Shown: one piece after another, positions 2,161-16,056 of the stretch
How positions within the stretch are numbered: the stretch's first letter is position 1
How the letters are laid out: the number at the start of each line of letters is the position of its first letter
NCBI GenBank assembly: GCA_028684815.1
Contig: JAQUFE010000001.1
Coordinates: 92,665 to 135,994 of the forward strand
Direction: 5' to 3'
Length of the DNA stretch: 43,330 nucleotides
Source: Sulfurimonas sp.
Lineage (GTDB): Bacteria > Campylobacterota > Campylobacteria > Campylobacterales > Sulfurimonadaceae
Made by a program: the position numbers and the translations under genes
Notes under the pieces: model-generated
Seen by the model: only the letters and a program-made list of their open reading frames with translations
What the model was told of the DNA's origin: nothing
Databases searched by the model: none

Positions 2161-4326
2161 TTAGTAGATAATACTACGGTTTCTTCCACTGTTTTTAGCC
2201 CCATAGAGTGCTTTATCTGCTCTTTGTAGGATTGCTTTTACATCTTTATCATCATCTTGTCTTGAAGATATTCCTATGCTTAGAGTGTATTTTATACTTT
2301 TACCATCATGGTTTACAACTGAGTTGGAGATTGTTTCACGGAATCTCTCAGCAAAGATAAGAGCGCCATCAGAGTCTGTCTCTCTTAGCATCACTACAAA
2401 CTCTTCACCGCCAATCCTAGCTACAATATCTAAACTCCTCGCCATGCTTAAACATATACTAGAGAAGTGTTTAAGCACTTCATCGCCAGCATCGTGCCCA
2501 TAAGTGTCGTTTATCTTTTTAAAGTGGTCAATATCTAGCAATAAAAAACTTAGCTCACTTTTATAGCGGTTTGAACGCTCTAGCTCAATTTGAGACAACT
2601 CATCAAACTTACGGCGGTTCATAGTACCTGTAAGAGGGTCAATATATGCCATCTCTTGAAGTTCAACATTCTGTTTTTGCTGAGACTCTATCTCTAACTC
2701 TTTTTTATTTAGATAGAGTTGGGTGTAGATATCACCCTTTAGGAGTTTTTGTCTGGTTGTCTCGTATGCATCGTACATAACAGCTAACTCATCTCTGTTT
2801 ATATTTATAGGAGAGAGTCTAAGCGACCTTCCTCCTTTAGCTAAATCTTTCATGGCATCTGTGAGTTGATGGATCTGGTACTTTGTGCTTGTTCTAAAAG
2901 TATAGAGCATAGAGAGTGTAATGATTAAGATAGTTGTAGCAAAAAATAACCATAAAAGAAGATTTACTATAGAGTCATTTATACTTGCCTCTACTAAAGA
3001 GTTAATCTTAAAGAGGAGACTCTCTTCAAAGATTTTTATCTCATTGATAAGCTCTGTGACAGAGTCAAACCAGACTTGCGAATCAAGAGAATCAAACTCT
3101 CTGAGATAGATGCTTTGTTTATAGTCATCTATTTTTTTCGCTATGTCTGAGGATATAATTAAATTATACTCACCTTGTTCTAAGGGAGATGCACTCTGCT
3201 TAAATGTTTCGAAAAAAGCTCTTTGGGTTCCATCTAGCTTTGCAAAGTGTAGATATTCATCTATGGAGCCACCATTTTTTTCTATAAGCATAATTGCATA
3301 GGCTCTTTGTTGGCCTAAAGACTCTTTTAGATGTTGCAAAGAAGATAGTGTGGCAATATTAGAAGATATCTCTCTATCGTAGTTTAAAAAGGCTACCTTT
3401 GGCGTGATGTTTAGGATATTTTTAATAATCTGGGTATAAGAATATATCGCTTCATCTTGGGTGATTTCTTTTGCATCTATCTTATCCCTGAGCTTTTTTA
3501 GTGATAATATATCTGCTTGAAATCTTTTTATATATGGTTCTATTACGCTTATATGCTTTATATCTGGTTCTTTGATTTTTTCTTGAAACTTTTTTATTGA
3601 GATATTAAGGCTAAGCTTTTGTCGTCTTAGAGTCTCTTTAAACTTTCCATCTGAGCAAGTAACATGGCCAATACTTAGACCTCTTTCCATCTGCATATCG
3701 TGAACAACTTTATCTACACTTGATACAATCTGAGTTATCGTAGATGTTTTTTTCATGTTCATATATTTTGTGAGGTTGTTAAATAGTATGATAGTCCCAA
3801 AGAGGAGCATTCCTAAGAGAGGAATAATGGCTGAGAGAAAAATTCTCTTTGTAAAACTAAAATTTTCTATAGTTTTTTTTGTTATTTTAGAGATAAAACT
3901 CTTTTTATTACTCATTTTTTGTTTTGTAAGACCATGCTGTTCATATATACTAATAGTTGGAATATCTTCTTCTATAATATGGTTAAATAGCCAATCTGTT
4001 AGAAAGTAACTTACTTCTTGCGCATTAGCACTATTTTTTACATCGGCTAGTTTTGTCATTAGTTCGGGAATTTTTTTGCCAAACTCTCTATGCTGAGCCA
4101 TATGCTCTTTTATATCTTCATAATTACACTTTTTAAGGAGTGCTTCTTCTCTATGAAAATGCTCTAGTACATACTTTTGTAAGTCTTTGAATGTTTTATC
4201 TATAACTTCTTGCGTGTTGCCATCTTTTATAGCATCTGAGAGAGTGTTGATAATGTTTAGGAGTTTTTTATGGTCATCATCAATGGCTTTTACGCCAAGA
4301 CTTAACCCTTCGTGCCATTGGATCAT
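2161..4326 (-). CDS. Hemerythrin / NIT-like / GGDEF diguanylate cyclase, membrane sensor
   Basis: Predicted to make c-di-GMP under control of two sensory regions. Residues 1-135 form a bacteriohemerythrin domain with all seven di-iron ligands visible: H19, H56, E60, H75, H79, H116 and D121. A membrane segment follows (about 163-183), then a long helical extracytoplasmic region (about 195-445) with the ERGLS motif typical of NIT nitrate/nitrite-sensing domains, a second membrane segment (453-475), a linker, and a C-terminal GGDEF domain with GGEEF (639-643) and the inhibitory-site motif RSLD five residues before it. Start: the ATG at 4326 is chosen because the hemerythrin domain begins there (721 aa). 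No good Shine-Dalgarno is visible, but TAGAAT lies 7 nt upstream, so the mRNA may be nearly leaderless. It is divergent from rmuC. Confidence 0.9.
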   Translation of the reverse strand: MIQWHEGLSLGVKAIDDDHKKLLNIINTLSDAIKDGNTQEVIDKTFKDLQKYVLEHFHREEALLKKCNYEDIKEHMAQHREFGKKIPELMTKLADVKNSANAQEVSYFLTDWLFNHIIEEDIPTISIYEQHGLTKQKMSNKKSFISKITKKTIENFSFTKRIFLSAIIPLLGMLLFGTIILFNNLTKYMNMKKTSTITQIVSSVDKVVHDMQMERGLSIGHVTCSDGKFKETLRRQKLSLNISIKKFQEKIKEPDIKHISVIEPYIKRFQADILSLKKLRDKIDAKEITQDEAIYSYTQIIKNILNITPKVAFLNYDREISSNIATLSSLQHLKESLGQQRAYAIMLIEKNGGSIDEYLHFAKLDGTQRAFFETFKQSASPLEQGEYNLIISSDIAKKIDDYKQSIYLREFDSLDSQVWFDSVTELINEIKIFEESLLFKINSLVEASINDSIVNLLLWLFFATTILIITLSMLYTFRTSTKYQIHQLTDAMKDLAKGGRSLRLSPININRDELAVMYDAYETTRQKLLKGDIYTQLYLNKKELEIESQQKQNVELQEMAYIDPLTGTMNRRKFDELSQIELERSNRYKSELSFLLLDIDHFKKINDTYGHDAGDEVLKHFSSICLSMARSLDIVARIGGEEFVVMLRETDSDGALIFAERFRETISNSVVNHDGKSIKYTLSIGISSRQDDDKDVKAILQRADKALYGAKNSGRNRSIIY

Positions 4327-4428: not shown

Positions 4429-5613
4429 ATGGATTTATATTTGGCTCTTTTGATTGTTTGTTGTGTAGTTATTGCAACATTGTTGTATCTTTATGTATCG
4501 ACTCTTCAAACCAAAAATGACTTAAGAATGAGATACGCCATCTTAAGTAGTAAGTATGAAGGAAATATAAAATCTCATCAAGAGAAGATAGAGATGCTCC
4601 AAAGTGCAAAAGAGGAGCTATCAAAAGAGTTTAGACTTCTAGCTAATGAGATTTTTGAGACAAAATCAAAGAGTTTTAACCATACGCATAAAGAGCATTT
4701 TGAGATGCTTCTTCGTCCTTTTCGTGAACAGATAACAAACTTCTCAAACCAATCAAAAGAGCAGTTTAGTTATGAGACGAAAGAGCGGCATCTATTAAAA
4801 GATGAGTTAGTAAGACTAAAAGAGATGAACTCTAAACTATCTCAAGATGCATTAAATCTTACAAATGCTCTAAAGGGTGAGAACAAAACTCAAGGAAACT
4901 GGGGCGAGATAGTTTTAGTTAGAATCTTAGAAGAATCAGGCTTAAGAGAGGGGATGGAGTATAAAACACAAGTGAGTCTAAAATCTCCTGAGGGCAAAAG
5001 TTACCGCCCTGATGTAGTGATTCATATGCCACAACAAAGAGATATCATCATAGACTCAAAAGTCTCTCTTTTAGCTTATGAAAAGTTTGTAAAAGAGGAT
5101 GATGCTAAGCTAAAGAGTCAGGCTTTAAGAGAGCATCTAAACTCCATAAGTACGCATGTAAAAGAGCTTAGCGCTAAAAATTACGATGCTTTAGAGGGTG
5201 TAAATACACTTGATTTTACACTTCTTTTTATGCCAATAGAAGGAGCTTTTCTTCTTGCACTTGAGTCAGATGGAGAGTTTTTTAAACGTGCTTATGATAG
5301 CAATATCTTAGTAGTCTCACCATCTACACTCCTAGTGACACTTAGAACTATAGAGCATATTTGGAGAACAAAACACCAAGAAGAGCATGCCCAAAAAATA
5401 GTGAGTGAGGCTGAGGCGATGTATGAAAAACTTGTTTTGTTTGTAGATGAGATGCTAAAGGTAAAAGAGCATCTTCAAAAGGCTCAGGACTCTTACGATA
5501 TCTCTATGAAGAGACTAAAGAGTGGTAAAGGAAACATTATAAAACGGGCACAAAATCTTGTGGAGTTAGGGCTTAAGCCTAAAAAAGAGTTAAGCATAAT
5601 AAGTGAAGAGTAA
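4429..5613 (+). CDS. rmuC: DNA recombination protein RmuC family
   Basis: RmuC proteins limit DNA rearrangement at inverted repeats and are predicted nuclease-fold proteins anchored in the membrane. Visible here: one N-terminal membrane segment (3-22), a long coiled-coil region (about 28-150), GNWGE (156-160), then the conserved domain with RPDVVI (193-198) and IDSKVS (208-213), the restriction-endonuclease-like core. The length of 394 aa is usual. AGGA lies 9 nt before the ATG and TATAAT lies at about 4393, so a promoter immediately upstream is likely. The kinase gene starts 2 nt after the stop, so the two are probably co-transcribed. Confidence 0.92.
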   Translation: MDLYLALLIVCCVVIATLLYLYVSTLQTKNDLRMRYAILSSKYEGNIKSHQEKIEMLQSAKEELSKEFRLLANEIFETKSKSFNHTHKEHFEMLLRPFREQITNFSNQSKEQFSYETKERHLLKDELVRLKEMNSKLSQDALNLTNALKGENKTQGNWGEIVLVRILEESGLREGMEYKTQVSLKSPEGKSYRPDVVIHMPQQRDIIIDSKVSLLAYEKFVKEDDAKLKSQALREHLNSISTHVKELSAKNYDALEGVNTLDFTLLFMPIEGAFLLALESDGEFFKRAYDSNILVVSPSTLLVTLRTIEHIWRTKHQEEHAQKIVSEAEAMYEKLVLFVDEMLKVKEHLQKAQDSYDISMKRLKSGKGNIIKRAQNLVELGLKPKKELSIISEE

Positions 5614-5615
5614 AC

Positions 5616-7469
5616 ATGAAGATAAATGAAAAAAGAGTAATCTCATATCTTATAGTCGTAGTGCCATTAGCCTTGGTGTTGACGGCTAGTTTTTTTATAA
5701 CTACTTTTTATATAGATAAAGTAAACGCTTATTTCAAAAAAGTAAAAGAGATTTCTATAGCTGAGCATATAGAGTCTAAAAAAGCTAAGAGTGAGATTTG
5801 GGTAGATCAGTTAAACCTTCTATTTGACTATAAAACAAATCGTTTAGCTGATGGCATAAAAATGGAGCTTAAGCAGAGTGTTGATATGGCTTATGATAGT
5901 GCTAGATATATCTATGAAAAGTATGATATGAAAAAGTCAGCAAGAGAGATAAAAGAGCGGATAATAGATTCTCAGATGGCATTTAACGCAGGTAAAAGCC
6001 CCATTTTTATGGTTAGTTTTAATGGAGAAAATATTCTACCACGAAGCTTAAAACTATCGCAAAAAAACATTATATCTTATGAAGATGCTAACCATAGAGC
6101 CATAATCTTAGAAGAGATACAAAAGGCGAGAAAATACCAAGAGGGCTTTTTAGAGAGCGATTTTTATGAACAAAAACAGAGTTATATAACGTATGTTAAA
6201 AACTTAAATATTTATGACTACTACATAGGCTCATCCATAAATGTTGAGAATAAGAGAGATTCTCTAAAGTCTGAACTCTTAGAGATGCTAAAGAGCATAC
6301 CTATGGATAGAGCCGATTTTATGGGCCTTTATGAAGCAAAAGAGCCTATTTTTTTATCTAAAAAAATGTCATCTTTTTTAGGAGATAACTCACTTGAATT
6401 TATATCTACAAACCTCTCAGAAGAATCAAAATGGCATAAAGACACCTTAGATAATTTTTACTACTACTCTAAGTACTATGAGCCACTTGATTGGTACTTG
6501 CTTTATGGTTTTGAGACATCTAAGATGAGTAAAAAAGAGTTAGAAAAACAAAATCAATTGGAGCAGATGCTAGATAATGAACTAGACTTTATCCTAAGTG
6601 CATCAGCGGCTATTGTTATCTTTGTTGTTGTTCTCTCACTTCTTCTCTCAAGAAAGATAAATGGTATATTTTTAGAGTATCAAGATGAGGTGCAAAGAAG
6701 AGCTGATGAACTTGAGAAATTAAATGAGTCACTAGAGCAAAGGGTTGCTGATGGATTAAGGGAACAGAGACAAAAAGATAAAATCCTAATCCAACAGTCA
6801 AAGATGGCAGAGATGGGGGATATGTTAAGTATGATAGCTCATCAGTGGAGACAACCTTTAAATCAGATGTCATATGTATTTATGAATATCGACTCAGCTT
6901 ATGAGCATAAAGAGCTTACAAAAGAGTATCTTGATGAGAAGTTAGTTGAAGCAAATGCTATCTTAGAGTTTATGTCTGTAACCATAGATGATTTTAGAAA
7001 CTACTTCAGACCTGATAAATCAAAAGAGTTTGTACTTGTTAGCGATGTAGTAAATACAAGTGTGAGCTTGATGCAAAAATCGCTTGAACTTAGTGGCATA
7101 GAACTTGAACTAGATACTCAAGGACGGGATTTGACTCATATATATAAAAATGAGTTTATACAAGTTATGTTAAATCTTATAAAAAATGCAAAAGATATAT
7201 TAGTAGAAAAAGAGGTACAAAATCCTAAAATCACCATCAAAACGAGATGCCAAAAAGAGAAACTAGTTGTAGAAGTTTGTGATAATGCTGGAGGGATTGA
7301 TGAGGCTATAAAGGAGAAAATATTTGAGCCATACTTCTCTACAAAAGATAAACATAACGGAACAGGTTTAGGACTCTATATGTCAAAGATGATTATAGAA
7401 GAGCATCTTGGAGGAAGCCTGAGTGTTAGCAATTTTGAAGATGGAGTTTGCTTTAGGATTGAGATATAG
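5616..7469 (+). CDS. Sensor histidine kinase with extracytoplasmic sensor
   Basis: A membrane histidine kinase of 617 aa. It has TM1 (about 11-34), a large extracytoplasmic region of about 290 residues with a Cache-like look (not proven), TM2 (about 327-346), a coiled coil, then a phosphoacceptor helix with MIAHQWRQPLN (H409), a form common in Campylobacterota and Deltaproteobacteria. The ATPase domain shows the N-box NLIKNAKD, G1 DNAGGI, the F-box FEPYFSTK and GTGLGL (582-587). No response regulator adjoins it, so the partner is unknown. It follows rmuC by 2 nt and probably shares its transcript. Confidence 0.9.
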   Translation: MKINEKRVISYLIVVVPLALVLTASFFITTFYIDKVNAYFKKVKEISIAEHIESKKAKSEIWVDQLNLLFDYKTNRLADGIKMELKQSVDMAYDSARYIYEKYDMKKSAREIKERIIDSQMAFNAGKSPIFMVSFNGENILPRSLKLSQKNIISYEDANHRAIILEEIQKARKYQEGFLESDFYEQKQSYITYVKNLNIYDYYIGSSINVENKRDSLKSELLEMLKSIPMDRADFMGLYEAKEPIFLSKKMSSFLGDNSLEFISTNLSEESKWHKDTLDNFYYYSKYYEPLDWYLLYGFETSKMSKKELEKQNQLEQMLDNELDFILSASAAIVIFVVVLSLLLSRKINGIFLEYQDEVQRRADELEKLNESLEQRVADGLREQRQKDKILIQQSKMAEMGDMLSMIAHQWRQPLNQMSYVFMNIDSAYEHKELTKEYLDEKLVEANAILEFMSVTIDDFRNYFRPDKSKEFVLVSDVVNTSVSLMQKSLELSGIELELDTQGRDLTHIYKNEFIQVMLNLIKNAKDILVEKEVQNPKITIKTRCQKEKLVVEVCDNAGGIDEAIKEKIFEPYFSTKDKHNGTGLGLYMSKMIIEEHLGGSLSVSNFEDGVCFRIEI

Positions 7470-9038: not shown

Positions 9039-10093
9039 GAATATTAACACTTTTAACACTTATCTTTATGACTCTTTTTGCAAATATTGAGATTAGCAAA
9101 AAGCAAGAGAGTGAACTTGGTATCAAAACCACAAAAGTACAAAAAGCTACAACTATAGAGTTTGGAGCATATAACGCAAAGGTGAGCTTAGATGCAAAAG
9201 ATATCATCTCTGTCGGATTAGCAGTTGATTCGGTTGTCTTAGATATTTTTGTCACAAAACTCTCCTCTGTAAAAAAAGGAGATAAGCTTATCTCTTTAAG
9301 AAGTAGCGAGCTTTTAAAGCTTCAAAAAGAGTATATCAACGCTCTTATAGAGAAGCAAAACCTACTTAAAAACTACCAAAGAGATGAGAAGCTCTTTAGT
9401 GAGGGAATCATCTCAGAGAAGAATCTGTTTACCTCACAAAAAGAAAAACTAAACTCCGAGTTAAGAGTAAGTTTGAGTGAGGGCGAACTCCTTATGAGCG
9501 GCTTTAATGAGATTCTACTAAAGAGAGTTAGAGATACTCACACGCTTGTAGAGTCTATAAATATCTTGGCACAAAGAGATGGTTTAGTAGATGCCATAGC
9601 TGTAAATATTGGACAAAAAGTTGAATCTAACAAAACTATGATGAAAATCTATGCAGATGCAAAGAGGTATTTGGAATTAAGTGTGCCTATTGCTGTTGCG
9701 AAAAATTTAGTTCTTGGAGATAGATGCTACTTTGAATCAAAGAGTGCCGAGATCGTTGCCATTTCAAACATCGCAAATGAAGAGACACAGTCTGTAAATG
9801 TAAGAGCTATCATAGAAGATGCAAAAGGCGTGATGATAAATAGAGTCTATTTCGCAAAGATAAAAAAGAGTGTAGAGAGTGCATTTGTGGTTGAAAAAAG
9901 TGCTTTGGTTTATAAAGAAAACATGCCAATAATCTTTAGAAAAACCCCAAAAGGATATGAGGCTTTGAGTGTTGTAATACTCAAAGAAGATGCACAAACT
10001 TACACCATAGAAGCAGAATTGACTGATGAAGATAAAGTAGCTGTGAGTTCCACTTCCGCACTTCTTAGTGCAATGGAGCATCAAGGTGAGTGA
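9035..10093 (+). CDS. Periplasmic adaptor of RND metal efflux (CusB/CzcB type)
   Basis: A membrane-fusion protein linking the inner membrane pump to the outer membrane channel. It has an N-terminal signal or anchor (about 1-17), a short barrel/lipoyl-like region, a helical hairpin (about 95-160, Lys/Glu/Leu-rich), a return lipoyl segment around QRDGLVDAIAVNIGQKVE, and a C-terminal beta-barrel part. At 352 aa it is somewhat short for CusB but normal for compact HME adaptors. It overlaps the previous gene by 4 nt and the pump gene by 8 nt, which points to one operon and fixed stoichiometry. Confidence 0.85.
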   Translation: MRILTLLTLIFMTLFANIEISKKQESELGIKTTKVQKATTIEFGAYNAKVSLDAKDIISVGLAVDSVVLDIFVTKLSSVKKGDKLISLRSSELLKLQKEYINALIEKQNLLKNYQRDEKLFSEGIISEKNLFTSQKEKLNSELRVSLSEGELLMSGFNEILLKRVRDTHTLVESINILAQRDGLVDAIAVNIGQKVESNKTMMKIYADAKRYLELSVPIAVAKNLVLGDRCYFESKSAEIVAISNIANEETQSVNVRAIIEDAKGVMINRVYFAKIKKSVESAFVVEKSALVYKENMPIIFRKTPKGYEALSVVILKEDAQTYTIEAELTDEDKVAVSSTSALLSAMEHQGE

Positions 10094-13000
10094 GAGACTC
10101 ATTAGTTTTGCACTTTCGCAAAGGTTTTTAGTTCTCTTAGTCGCATTTGGAGTCTTGTTTTTTGGCGCATCTTCGATGCTAAAACTACCAGTAGATGCCT
10201 ACCCTGATGTGGCTCCAACTCAGGTAAAAATCATACTAAAATCATCTGGTATGACACCAGCTGAGATGGAGTCTCGTGTGATGATTCCAGTGGAGCAAAA
10301 CCTGCAAAGCATACCAAAACAGGTGATGGTTCGCTCACTTTCAAAGTATGGACTTTGTGACATAACTATTGACTTTGAAGATGGGGTTGATATCTACTGG
10401 GCGAGACAGCAAGTGGCACAAAGGCTAAGTGAGGTAAAAGATGTACTTCCTGAGAATGTCGCAGGAGGACTAGCTCCCATCACTACACCTTTGGGCGAAG
10501 TTTTGATGTTTACTATAGAGTCTGATGACTTAGATTTGATGCAAAAGCGAACACTTCTTGACTGGGTTATAAATAAAAAAATCCGCTCAATTGATGGTGT
10601 GGCAGACACAAATGCTCTGGGCGGATATGTTAAGACTTATGAGATAGTTCCTGATTTTTTAAAGATGAAACTGCACAAAATCACAATGAGCCAACTCGAA
10701 GATGCCATTAAAAAGAACAATAAAAATGAGGGTGTTGGAAGGCTCTCCATAGGCGAGCAGAGCCTCTTTATAAGAACAGAGGGGAGACTCAAAAATCTTA
10801 GTGATATATCAAGACTAATTATAAAGAGTGTTGATGCAAGAGATATCAGAGTATCTGATATTGCTGAGGTTAGGATTGGCTCACTTACAAGAGGTGGTTT
10901 TGTCACAAAAGATGGTAAAGAAGAAGCAGTTCAAGGTTTGATACTCTCGCGAAAAGGTGTTGATACTTCTGGGGTTTTAAAGAGAGTAAAAGAAGAACTA
11001 AAAAATATAGAAAAAGATTTGCCAAAAGGCACAACTATCAACATCTTTTACGACCGTTCAGACTTAGTCTCAAAAGCTATACATACAGTTACTAAAGCAC
11101 TACTTGAAGCTATGGCTCTTATCATGATAGTTTTATATCTCTTTTTGGGAAGCTTTGCATCTGCTTTTAGTGTAGCCATCATCTTGCCTTTTGCCGCTAT
11201 GATGACCTTTGTGGCTATGAGCTACTTTGGTATTAGTGCAAACCTTATGAGTCTTGGAGGGCTTGCTATTGCTATTGGGATGCTCGTAGATGCTGGGGTT
11301 GTTATGGTTGAAAATATTGCAGAGCATCTCCAAGATGAAAAGTACAAAGATGAGTCAAAACTAAGTGTGGTTTTGATTTCGGCAAAAGAGGTTGCAACTC
11401 CAGTTTTTACTGGGATACTCATCATCATCATAGTTTTCTTACCACTACTAACACTAGAGGGCTTAGAGGGAAAACTCTTTGTTCCAGTTGCTCTTAGCAT
11501 TGTTTTTGCACTAACTTCTTCACTCATTTTAGCACTTACTTTTATACCTGTTGTGAGTTTTTATGTGCTAAAAAAAGAACCAGGAAAAGAAGTGGCTTTG
11601 ATGGTATTTTTAGAGAAATGGTATGAGAAGATTTTGAGGTTTTCTCTCTCTCATCAAAAGAGCGTCTTTGCTGTAGTTGGGGTTTTATGGATAGCTGCAG
11701 TTGTCGCATATCTGGGAGTTGGAAAGACATTTATGCCAACGCTTGATGAGGGAAATGTTATCATCGGTATAGAGAAAAATCCATCTATCTCACTTGAAGC
11801 TAGTCGTGATATTGACTTAAAAATCCAAAAAGCTCTTATGCGTGATGTCCCAGAAGTCCTCTCCATAGTAGCAAGGGGTGGAAGTGATGAGATAGGACTA
11901 GATCCAATGGGCTTGAATGATACAGATACATTTTTAGTCTTAAAACCAAAAAATGAGTGGAGAGTACCATCAAATGAGTGGCTGCTCGATGAGTTTAGAG
12001 GAGTTTTAGATGAATTTGTAGGCATTGAGTATAGTTTTACACAACCCATAGCTATGCGAGTATCTGAGATGCTAAGTGGCTCAAGAGGGGATATAGTTGT
12101 AAATATCTATGGAGGCGACACAGAGAGGCTTGAAGAGATAGCTAAAGAAGTAGCCACAATTACGGAGTCCATCAAGGGTAGTAGCGATGTTTACAAAAAG
12201 GCTAATGAGGGAGTTGCTTACTGGGAGATAGAGTTTAAAGAAGAGGCGATGGCTAGGCATGTGGTAAGTAAGGATGAGCTCTCAAACTACCTAAAGGCTA
12301 GTGTTGATGGGATAGAAGTTGGGATTGTTCAAGAAGATTTAAGACGGATTCCACTTATGATAAAGGGAGATAAAACTCTTCAAACTACAATGAGCAAAAA
12401 CAAAAACTTGCAATATGTGCTTGCTAGTGGAGAGAGCGTTGAGATAAACGAGTTAGTAGAGTTTAAAATGACACAAGGTCCTGTGCAGATTGACCATGAG
12501 AACTCTATGAGAAAGTCTCTTGTACAAACCAATGTAGTAGGGCGAGATCTGGTAGGTTTTGTGGATGAGCTTAGCACCTTAATAGATGAGAAGCTAGAAC
12601 TTCCGCAAGGATATTTTATAGAGTATGCAGGAGAGTATCAAAACCAACAAAGAGCATCTAAGCGACTCTCTATCATAGTGCCACTTAGTATAGTTATGGT
12701 TTTCATCTTGCTTCTTTTGACATTTAAGTCATCTCTGCAAGCATTTTTAATCCTCTTAAACATACCTTTTGCACTTATCGGCGGAGTCTTTGGACTTTAC
12801 TATATGAATGAGTATATGAGTGTGCCAGCTAGTGTTGGTTTTATCGCTCTGATGGGAATTGCAGTCTTAAACGGCGTTGTGATGCTGGAGTACTTTAACA
12901 AACTAAGAGGAACTATAGAGGACTCACAAGAGTTAGTTATTCAAGGCTCACTAAGAAGACTTAGACCAGTTTTAATGACAGCATCCATAGCAGCTCTAGC

Positions 13001-14709: not shown

Positions 14710-15099
14710 ATGTTTCAAAATATAGATGTAGCAAAACTCATAATCAGGTTAAGTCTTGGCATCATGATGCTCTTTCACGGGGTTGATAAGATTAGAAATG
14801 GCATCGACGGGGTAAAACACCTAGTGACAAAAGCTGGACTTCCTGAATTTTTAGCGTATGGAGTCTATATGGGAGAGGTTTTAATGCCTATCTTTATCAT
14901 CTTAGGACTCTATGCAAGAGCTGCATCAGTTGTTTTAGGATTTACTATGGTATTTGCTATATTTTTAGCTTACGGCGTAGCTTTTTTAGCCTTAACGAAA
15001 CACGGCGCACCTGCGATGGAACTTCCATTTTTGTATCTTGTACTATCACTAAGTGTATTTTTTCTAGGTTCTGGAAGGTATGCTTTAAACTCTAAATAG
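14710..15099 (+). CDS. DoxX-family integral membrane protein
   Basis: A 129-aa protein with four membrane segments, matching DoxX/DoxD small membrane proteins: an N-terminal RLSLGIMMLFHGVDKI segment, then GVYMGEVLMPIFIILGLYAR, a third hydrophobic helix, and a C-terminal helix ending FFLGSGRYAL. DoxX members have been linked to thiosulfate or quinone redox chemistry in some organisms, but a specific role cannot be read here. AGGAAT lies before the start. It follows the 65-aa gene directly. Confidence 0.82.
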   Translation: MFQNIDVAKLIIRLSLGIMMLFHGVDKIRNGIDGVKHLVTKAGLPEFLAYGVYMGEVLMPIFIILGLYARAASVVLGFTMVFAIFLAYGVAFLALTKHGAPAMELPFLYLVLSLSVFFLGSGRYALNSK

Positions 15100-15125
15100 T
15101 TTTGAGGATTTTTTAACAACATCTC

Positions 15126-15180
15126 AAAACCGCGAACTCTAGGAATAGTAACTAATGGCATTCTCCACGATGTTTCGGGG
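15126..15180 (+). repeat. 55-bp direct repeat, left copy
   Basis: It begins AAAACCGCGAACTCTAGGAA and ends CCACGATGTTTCGGGG. It matches 15980-16034 base for base except for about six substitutions, in the same orientation. The two copies bracket the gene-free island. The inner part is a variant of the palindrome seen at 1999-2096. Confidence 0.75.
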
Positions 15181-15186
15181 TTCTAG

Positions 15187-15276
15187 CTAGTTCCCACGCT
15201 CTGCGTGGGAATTCATATATAACTTTTTGAGTATTGTGTATATATAGGCTCCCACGCGGAGCATGGGAGCCAGAGA
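15187..15276 (+). repeat. REP/BIME-like 90-bp double palindrome, copy 1
   Basis: The first palindrome is TTCCCACGC-tct-GCGTGGGAA. A fixed AT-rich spacer of about 40 bp (ATTCATATATAAC through GTATATATAG) follows. The second palindrome has arms GCTCCCACGC and GCATGGGAGC with one mismatch. The architecture is that of REP-pair (BIME) elements, which in other bacteria are mobilised by RAYT Y1 transposases. No such transposase is in this window. Confidence 0.8.
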
Positions 15277-15290
15277 AACTCTAAGTAGTT

Positions 15291-15319
15291 TTGACAAATT
15301 TTTCTTACTTTGCTATACT
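15291..15319 (+). promoter_or_regulatory. Near-consensus sigma-70 promoter for the candidate sRNA
   Basis: TTGACA (15291-15296), a 17-bp spacer and TATACT (15314-15319) form one of the best promoters in the window. The predicted start is near 15326-15330. No protein gene follows; the transcript would end at the terminator 15384-15417. Confidence 0.7.
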
Positions 15320-15325
15320 TCTTTT

Positions 15326-15417
15326 GTTGAGATATATGAATCTTAATTATATCTGCCTAACTAACAGATATCTAAAAGGATGAGGCTAAGACTTTCGAGT
15401 CTTGGCCTTTTTTTTTT
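15326..15417 (+). ncRNA. Candidate small RNA of about 90 nt
   Basis: A transcript from the promoter at 15291-15319 to the terminator at 15384-15417 would be about 90 nt. It can form a 5' hairpin (15330-15336 with 15348-15354, AGATATA/TATATCT), then a self-complementary AGATATCT, then the terminator. It contains a 15-codon frame (15336-15383, MNLNYICLTNRYLKG) whose stop abuts the terminator stem. No good Shine-Dalgarno precedes it, so a leader peptide is possible but less likely than a noncoding RNA. I recognise no known RNA family. REP-like elements flank it on both sides. Confidence 0.55.
15384..15417 (+). terminator. Strong intrinsic terminator of the candidate sRNA
   Basis: A 10-bp stem (GGCTAAGACT with AGTCTTGGCC, one T-G wobble) closed by a TTCG tetraloop is followed by ten consecutive T residues (15408-15417). 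This is a textbook Rho-independent terminator on the plus strand. Confidence 0.85.
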
Positions 15418-15419
15418 AG

Positions 15420-15509
15420 CTAGTTCCCACGCTCTGCGTGGGAACTCATATATAACTTTTTGAGTATTGTGTATATATAGGCTCCCACGCAGAGCATGGG
15501 AGCAAGAGA
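15420..15509 (+). repeat. REP/BIME-like 90-bp double palindrome, copy 2
   Basis: Same length and order as copy 1, with a few substitutions (GGGAACTC for GGGAATTC; CACGCAGAG for CACGCGGAG in the second loop). It begins 3 nt after the T-run of the sRNA terminator. Confidence 0.8.
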
Positions 15510-15512
15510 CTT

Positions 15513-15636
15513 GGTCAAAAAAGCTAAAATCAAAAGTGATGAAAAAATTTATGCGTAAGTTACAACATCTGCAGAGCGAAGAAAGAACAAATAAATTTCG
15601 TTAAGAAAATTCAACTGTTTGAACGAAGTGAGTTTT
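15513..15636 (+). repeat. Composite repeat block, direct and inverted copies at 15868-15941
   Basis: The left part (from 15513, GGTCAAAAAAGCTAAAAT) recurs directly at 15915. The right part (15599-15636, beginning CGTTAAGAAAATTCAACTG) recurs inverted at 15868-15905 with about three changes. The block therefore consists of multicopy words rather than a gene; short frames in it are not credible. Confidence 0.6.
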
Positions 15637-15638
15637 AA

Positions 15639-15728
15639 CTAGTTCCCACGCTCTGCGTGGGAATTCATATATAACTTTTTGAGTATTGTGTATATATAGA
15701 CTCCCACGCGGAGCATGGGAGCCAGAGA
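15639..15728 (+). repeat. REP/BIME-like 90-bp double palindrome, copy 3
   Basis: The third copy has the same 90-bp length, identical first palindrome and spacer to copy 1, and one change (GACTCCC for GGCTCCC) that opens the base of the second stem. All three copies share orientation and start CTAGTTCCC. Confidence 0.8.
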
Positions 15729-15905: not shown

Positions 15906-15979
15906 ACTCCATTCGGTCAAAAAAGCTAAAATCCAAAGTGACAAAAAGAGTATCTAGCTCTTAAAATTTCATAAACAAC

Positions 15980-16034
15980 AAAACCGCGAACTTTAGGAAT
16001 GCTAACCAATGGCATTCTCCACGATATTTCGGGG
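15980..16034 (+). repeat. 55-bp direct repeat, right copy
   Basis: It begins AAAACCGCGAACTTTAGGAA and ends CGATATTTCGGGG, matching 15126-15180. It carries GAATGC, a 9-nt loop, and GCATTC, a stem-preserving variant of the GTATGC/GCATAC palindrome at 1999-2096 and 38961-39001. Confidence 0.75.
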
Positions 16035-16056
16035 CTCCGAAAAACTTGCCAAATTT

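Follow-up and report, generated by a model that had tools for sequence, protein, structure and literature searches.

The locus examined here raises the question of which RNA a promoter and an intrinsic terminator would delimit when they stand about 62 nt apart and no protein gene in the window overlaps them, and what such an RNA would do. The window is the whole stretch of 43,330 nt of Sulfurimonas sp. DNA that was analysed, taken from a draft genome (G000, 2.27 Mb, 96% complete). From comparison with related sequences, we are highly confident that this unit encodes the RNA antitoxin of a type I toxin-antitoxin family found in Sulfurimonas and other Campylobacterota, and that it is present in the window as an orphan without its toxin.

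A conserved, predicted small RNA gene

The sigma-70-type promoter (15291..15319, forward strand) consists of TTGACA at 15291-15296, a 17-nt spacer and TATACT at 15314-15319, with an extended -10 TG at 15311-15312, one base ahead of TATACT. The intrinsic terminator (15382..15417, forward strand) includes a hairpin at 15382-15409, for which a scan counting G-U gives 12 pairs, a TTCG loop, and a run of ten T at 15408-15417. Direct reading confirmed the promoter, the interval of about 60 nt, the TTCG-capped terminator and the ten T of the original prediction, as well as the REP-like elements, which end 14 bp ahead of the promoter and resume 2-3 bp past the T run. With a score of 11/12, this site is the best of the promoter-like sites between 12000 and 19000, which taken together are not enriched over shuffled sequences.

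The RNA start was put by eye at about 15326 from the position of the -10 element, and the 3' end lies within the T run, up to 15417. The resulting 92-nt RNA has a predicted fold of -30.4 kcal/mol, compared to -14.2 kcal/mol for shuffled sequences (z -6.1). Downstream of its 5' segment, the RNA forms hairpin 1 (15349..15371, forward strand), a covarying stem with a 9-nt loop, CCUAACUAA, at 15356-15364.

We searched 135 Sulfurimonas genomes with a 132-base query, a check that had been proposed for the candidate and that gave a positive result. At the syntenic site of genome G010, the whole unit, from promoter to terminator, is found with 89% identity across 128 nt (E 4e-43). Many copies that are more distant occur in other genomes, several per genome in some of them. 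This conservation indicates that the unit is more than a chance arrangement. Once oriented, the copies align from promoter through terminator, and both hairpin 1 and the terminator covary, with changes on both sides in 9 of their 16 pairs. We built a covariance model, R1, from 26 aligned copies, including that of the window, which itself gives a full-length match of 84.5 bits (15326..15415, forward strand). R1 matches occur in 50 of the 135 genomes, often in multiple copies; one lies in the window and one more good copy is on contig 94 of the same genome. About ten R1 matches, which start with GTTGCTGCACAAATGG, were discarded as false positives, being the 3' ends of other genes with a similar terminator. 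Rfam, at the gathering score, gives no match in the window and only a tRNA at the intact loci.

The predicted small RNA is thus very probably real. It had also been proposed that a 15-codon frame, MNLNYICLTNRYLKG*, which is indeed present and starts at 15336, could make this a leader-peptide or dual-function RNA. This proposal is not supported, as the frame ends after 8 codons in the G010 ortholog, and frames of at least 12 codons that start within the first 40 nt are found in only 13 of 49 family members.

The downstream ORF and its pairing with the RNA

In relatives, the same strand continues beyond the T run with a small hairpin and a G-rich stretch, and then a Shine-Dalgarno sequence, an ORF and a 3' hairpin. 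The ORF, which we regard as the predicted toxin, has 18-21 codons, is hydrophobic and lies in a structured mRNA. The 49 distinct loci contain 47 distinct peptides that share a common pattern, with a mean Kyte-Doolittle hydropathy of about 2.0, and start codons are usually TTG (30 loci), followed by ATG (13) and GTG (5). Examples are MSHKTIVVFLMLMVFTPSFH in the G010 ortholog (L033), MLYTTIIVFLLLMVFAPALY in L046, MLSRVIVILLILWFWFPTPLY in L043, and MLSKIVIVLLILMFCCTVRIY, the other toxin of the window genome (L032). Such a peptide would insert in the inner membrane. Pfam and NCBIfam families give no match to these very short peptides, and a Pfam scan of six of them, with the Ibs model included, gives none either, with a power limited by their length. 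In the window genome, the best hit of the Ibs model PF13956 reaches 10.2 bits for a cut-off of 27 and lies off any toxin locus.

The first 20 or so nucleotides of the RNA are antisense to the Shine-Dalgarno sequence and start codon of the adjacent ORF, with pairing centred on the region from about -10 to +8 relative to that codon. Over the 49 distinct loci, cognate duplexes have a mean energy of -20.3 kcal/mol, compared to -10.4 kcal/mol (sd 0.49) for RNAs and ORFs randomly exchanged between loci, and none of 100,000 permutations is as good, in a simple duplex model and with related loci that are not fully independent. The 5' end of the RNA has an inverted similarity to the downstream sequence, for which diversity-generating element, guide RNA, recombination-site and integron readings were dropped, because this similarity proved to be antisense pairing at the start codon of a same-strand ORF.

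A second and independent contact, spotted by eye and then tested, connects the loop of hairpin 1 with the loop of the 3' hairpin of the toxin mRNA. The two loops form 6.0 Watson-Crick pairs on average, compared to 4.2 after permutation (sd 0.17; 0 of 100,000 permutations as good). There are 29 distinct loop pairs, many of them differing by double changes, such as UAACUA/UAGUUA, UUUACUA/UAGUAA, UGAUUA/UAAUCA, GUGACUA/UAGUCAC and UGGCU/AGCCA. Inside the toxin mRNA, a long-distance helix joins codons 6-9 or so to the 3' end (0 of 100,000 permutations as good; 20 double-changed cells, compared to 4.5 in shuffles), and a hairpin at the Shine-Dalgarno sequence has modest support (z -4.3). The G-rich leader was also considered as a partner for the 3' half of the ORF, but this pairing is worse than in permuted pairs and is not supported.

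A covariance model of the toxin mRNA, R2, has 72 matches in the genus, 48 of which have an R1 antitoxin just upstream. When the 24 remaining loci were read, 20 proved to have an upstream same-strand antisense gene, missed by R1 because its terminator differs, which means that the antitoxin family is broader than R1; at a few of these 20 loci, duplexes are not clearly below shuffles and support is weak. One further match is at a contig edge, and the three that have no antitoxin are decayed toxins. Conversely, about a dozen antitoxins have no toxin. This asymmetry, with toxin-less antitoxins being common, is what a harmful ORF would be expected to give.

Several loci have additional features. 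Loci L172-L191 contain antitoxins with quite different terminator sequences, for example GGTAACTAG...CTAGTTACC, and another group of toxins, for example ...LIMLILMF...RLY. Directly downstream of decayed units, L034 (near 9520-10300) and L035 (near 5200-6250), from two genomes, show what we judge by eye to be a predicted type II-like pair, a short ribbon-helix-helix-like ORF followed by a RelE-like ORF, as if one system had replaced another. Units in L037 (1279-2300), L038 (5952-6600) and L034 (11509-12300) adjoin a tRNA-Ser-like gene, and those of L037 and L038 are also beside fragments of tyrosine-recombinase-like ORFs (both judged by eye), which suggests that units are carried on integrated islands.

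Regarding expression, the antitoxin upstream regions of the 49 loci have a mean promoter score of 9.2/12, compared to 6.6 in shuffles, and 41 of them have an extended -10. No enrichment of sigma-70-like promoters is found between the antitoxin terminator and the toxin ORF (6.3, compared to 6.8 in shuffles), a spacing that is nearly constant at 49-71 nt, and none is found downstream on the opposite strand (7.57, compared to 7.66). Antitoxin and toxin lie in tandem on the same strand in all loci read, with two separate hairpins. As we find no sigma-70-like promoter for the toxin, we infer that there is one promoter and that the toxin mRNA would arise by read-through of the antitoxin terminator, which would keep the antitoxin in excess; a promoter of another kind could have been missed by this analysis. 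At intact loci, the promoter would yield an RNA of about 85-90 nt with a 5' end antisense to the start of the downstream ORF. The loop-loop contact would start the interaction, the single-stranded 5' end would then invade the start site, and the outcome would be blocked translation, cutting of the duplex by RNase III, or both.

The family also extends beyond Sulfurimonas. In three families of the order, weak R1 matches turned out, once the loci were read, to belong to it (L160, L162, L163, L164, L166 and L167), with cognate pairing of -19.0 kcal/mol, compared to -8.3 kcal/mol for non-cognate pairs, while three others (L165, L168 and L169) are not members of the antitoxin family. pSULKU04 (L204), a 3,421-bp mobilizable plasmid of Sulfuricurvum kujiense with only three annotated genes, has a complete, unannotated antitoxin-toxin pair that crosses the origin of the record (3323-3421 joined to 1-200), with the toxin MSHLLMVFLVLMVLAPALH and an antitoxin duplex of about -28 kcal/mol. 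A phage collection gave no match, and no exact match to the pattern of the toxin 3' hairpin was found in viral contigs.

Toxin loss at the window locus

The unit has the same neighbours in the window and in G010, an upstream gene that resembles DoxX and a downstream gene that resembles a CDP-alcohol phosphatidyltransferase (as judged from sequence), and pairwise alignment with L033 shows that the promoter-terminator unit is intact in both. In place of the 150-bp toxin gene of G010, the window has 310 bp (15418..15727), with one junction at the T run of the antitoxin and the other in the terminator tail of the toxin gene. This replacement contains two BIME/REP copies (15420-15509 and 15632-15728). 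A third copy (15180..15276) is found upstream, within an insertion of about 187 bp (about 15104-15290) that is absent from G010 and flanked by an imperfect 28-nt duplication (15087-15114 and 15276-15303). The element is 97 bp long and has a TATATA core flanked by two palindromes, TTCCCACGC...GCGTGGGAA; the three copies at this locus (15180-15276, 15413-15509 and 15632-15728) are among dozens in the genome, and none is present at the G010 locus. BIMEs are thus the later arrivals at the locus. The region is also flanked by a second repeat family, a 59-nt direct repeat, CAAAACCGCGAACTYTAGGAATRSTAACYAATGGCATTCTCCACGATRTTTCGGGG, whose copies at 15125-15183 and 15979-16037 are 90% identical.

Since the toxin gene is replaced by BIME/REP sequence and the window has no toxin match, we interpret the window RNA as an orphan antitoxin that remained after loss of its toxin. 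Indeed, its 5' antisense segment, or guide (15326..15345, forward strand), is complementary to the Shine-Dalgarno sequence and start codon of the G010 ortholog toxin, with a duplex of -19.0 kcal/mol, compared to only -5.0 kcal/mol with the toxin that its own genome has elsewhere, and its hairpin 1 loop is the counterpart of the loop that partners the 3' hairpin of the toxin mRNA in relatives. As judged from these comparisons, no cognate toxin was found in the window genome. The predicted small RNA of about 90 nt therefore stands, with its conserved promoter, 5' end, hairpin and terminator, but not its description as a free-standing regulatory RNA, as it is an antitoxin whose toxin has been lost here.

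Relation to known systems and other explanations

Taken in the broad sense, type I systems include an RNA that covers the translation start of the toxin, which we find over the 49 loci, with the antitoxin only in the window, and a small hydrophobic peptide, which is found in relatives and absent from the window. The customary type I layout is different: the antitoxin is encoded opposite the toxin strand and separately transcribed (PMC12390103), and opposite, convergent and divergent arrangements have been listed (PMC4147584), none of which is seen in the new family. Its gene order rather corresponds to that of type III systems, in which one promoter is followed by an antitoxin RNA gene, an intrinsic terminator and the toxin, as in ToxI/ToxN (PMC5086642). 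Order and terminator match, the single promoter being deduced in the new family from the absence of another. However, ToxI consists of tandem repeats and acts by binding the toxin protein, an endoribonuclease, whereas the RNA described here, of about 90 nt, is unrepeated and antisense to the toxin mRNA.

Further parallels are found among type I systems. In Fst/par (RNA I/RNA II of pAD1; Fst/Ldr family), which the new family would resemble most in its mode of action, a loop contact at the 3' terminator hairpin of the toxin mRNA precedes pairing at the start site, the Shine-Dalgarno sequence is partly hidden in an intramolecular stem, and both plasmid and chromosomal copies exist (PMC7472228); in the new family, the loop-loop feature is seen through covariation only. 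Fst/par differs in its convergent promoters, shared bidirectional terminator and direct repeats, whereas the new family is arranged in tandem on one strand, and the PXXXG(C) motif and charged tail of Fst are absent from its peptide of about 20 residues. Ibs/Sib of Escherichia coli has a similar hydrophobic peptide of about 19-20 residues, multiple chromosomal copies and an antitoxin that covers the start (PMC4147584, PMC8309996), but Sib is encoded on the opposite strand and overlaps the whole ibs ORF, while the gene of the new RNA precedes the toxin in the same orientation, and its product pairs only around the start codon and with one loop. AapA/IsoA of Helicobacter pylori is also a type I system of Campylobacterota, in which the toxin mRNA engages its 3' end in a long-distance helix (PMC6733600). 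Nevertheless, IsoA is an antisense RNA that overlaps in cis, and in AapA it is the Shine-Dalgarno sequence that the helix hides, whereas the new helix connects codons of about 6-9 with the 3' end. The AapA peptides also differ from those of the new family. Finally, TisB/IstR-1, Zor/Orz, ShoB/OhsC and DinQ/AgrB also have an antitoxin beside the toxin and a limited pairing region (PMC4147584), but they are divergently transcribed, and their pairing region is in a long 5' UTR at a distance from the start codon, whereas it covers the start codon in the new family. Fst/par, Ibs/Sib and AapA/IsoA each have at least one defining feature that was tested and that the new family lacks.

In the literature, we found no description of this family and no link between type I toxin-antitoxin systems and Sulfurimonas, in a search that covered few subscription journals and preprints; for Arcobacter and Sulfurospirillum, the titles and abstracts retrieved with type I toxin-antitoxin systems were those of incidental papers only. 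The family is previously uncatalogued. Our more complete proposal is that it combines a type I mechanism, with antisense loop-loop and start-site pairing, and a type III-like operon with one promoter and a leaky terminator, distributed over several Campylobacterota families on chromosomes and at least one small plasmid, with orphans left after toxin loss; we consider the chances that all of this is right to be evenly balanced.

Some of the same features could be accounted for by a cis-acting leader of the attenuator type, in which the 5' end folds onto the downstream ORF, premature termination is the control and the short RNA has no role in trans. The same-strand order, the terminator between the two parts, the lack of a detected ORF promoter and the tight spacing of 49-71 nt would all agree with this, and a leader within the read-through transcript would use the identical pairing. 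However, by analogy with par/RNAII (PMC7472228), antisense RNAs acting in trans typically have features seen here, namely a strong terminator (8-10 T), a 5' end that is single-stranded and a loop-loop contact. In addition, antitoxins are retained at about a dozen toxin-less loci, which would leave a leader without a target. We therefore consider a cis-acting leader unlikely.

Still less probable is a trans-acting small RNA for other mRNAs, either as the original function or as a new role acquired following toxin loss. The orphan copy does retain its promoter, hairpin and terminator, in agreement with such a role, but the guide covaries with the adjacent toxin and not with distant genes. In the window genome, a 19-nt complement of the window guide has no more near-matches than a reversed control. 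The presence of BIME/REP copies on both sides of the unit, and of dozens in the genome, might point to a functionless promoter-terminator pair imported or made by these elements. This origin is refuted by the occurrence of the unit at the same place in G010 without any BIME, and beside toxins in many genomes, and we give it practically no credit. An RNA antitoxin of a type I family is thus the explanation that we retain.

With this reading, a multicopy type I family is added to the free-living Campylobacterota, a group for which AapA/IsoA of Helicobacter is the only well-described type I family found in our literature search. Searches for opposite-strand antitoxins would miss the new family. 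Its two contact sites, which covary over dozens of loci, constitute a natural data set on antisense specificity among paralogs, and the copy on pSULKU04 makes plasmid stabilisation directly testable. The window itself offers a case in which the toxin has been lost and the antitoxin kept.
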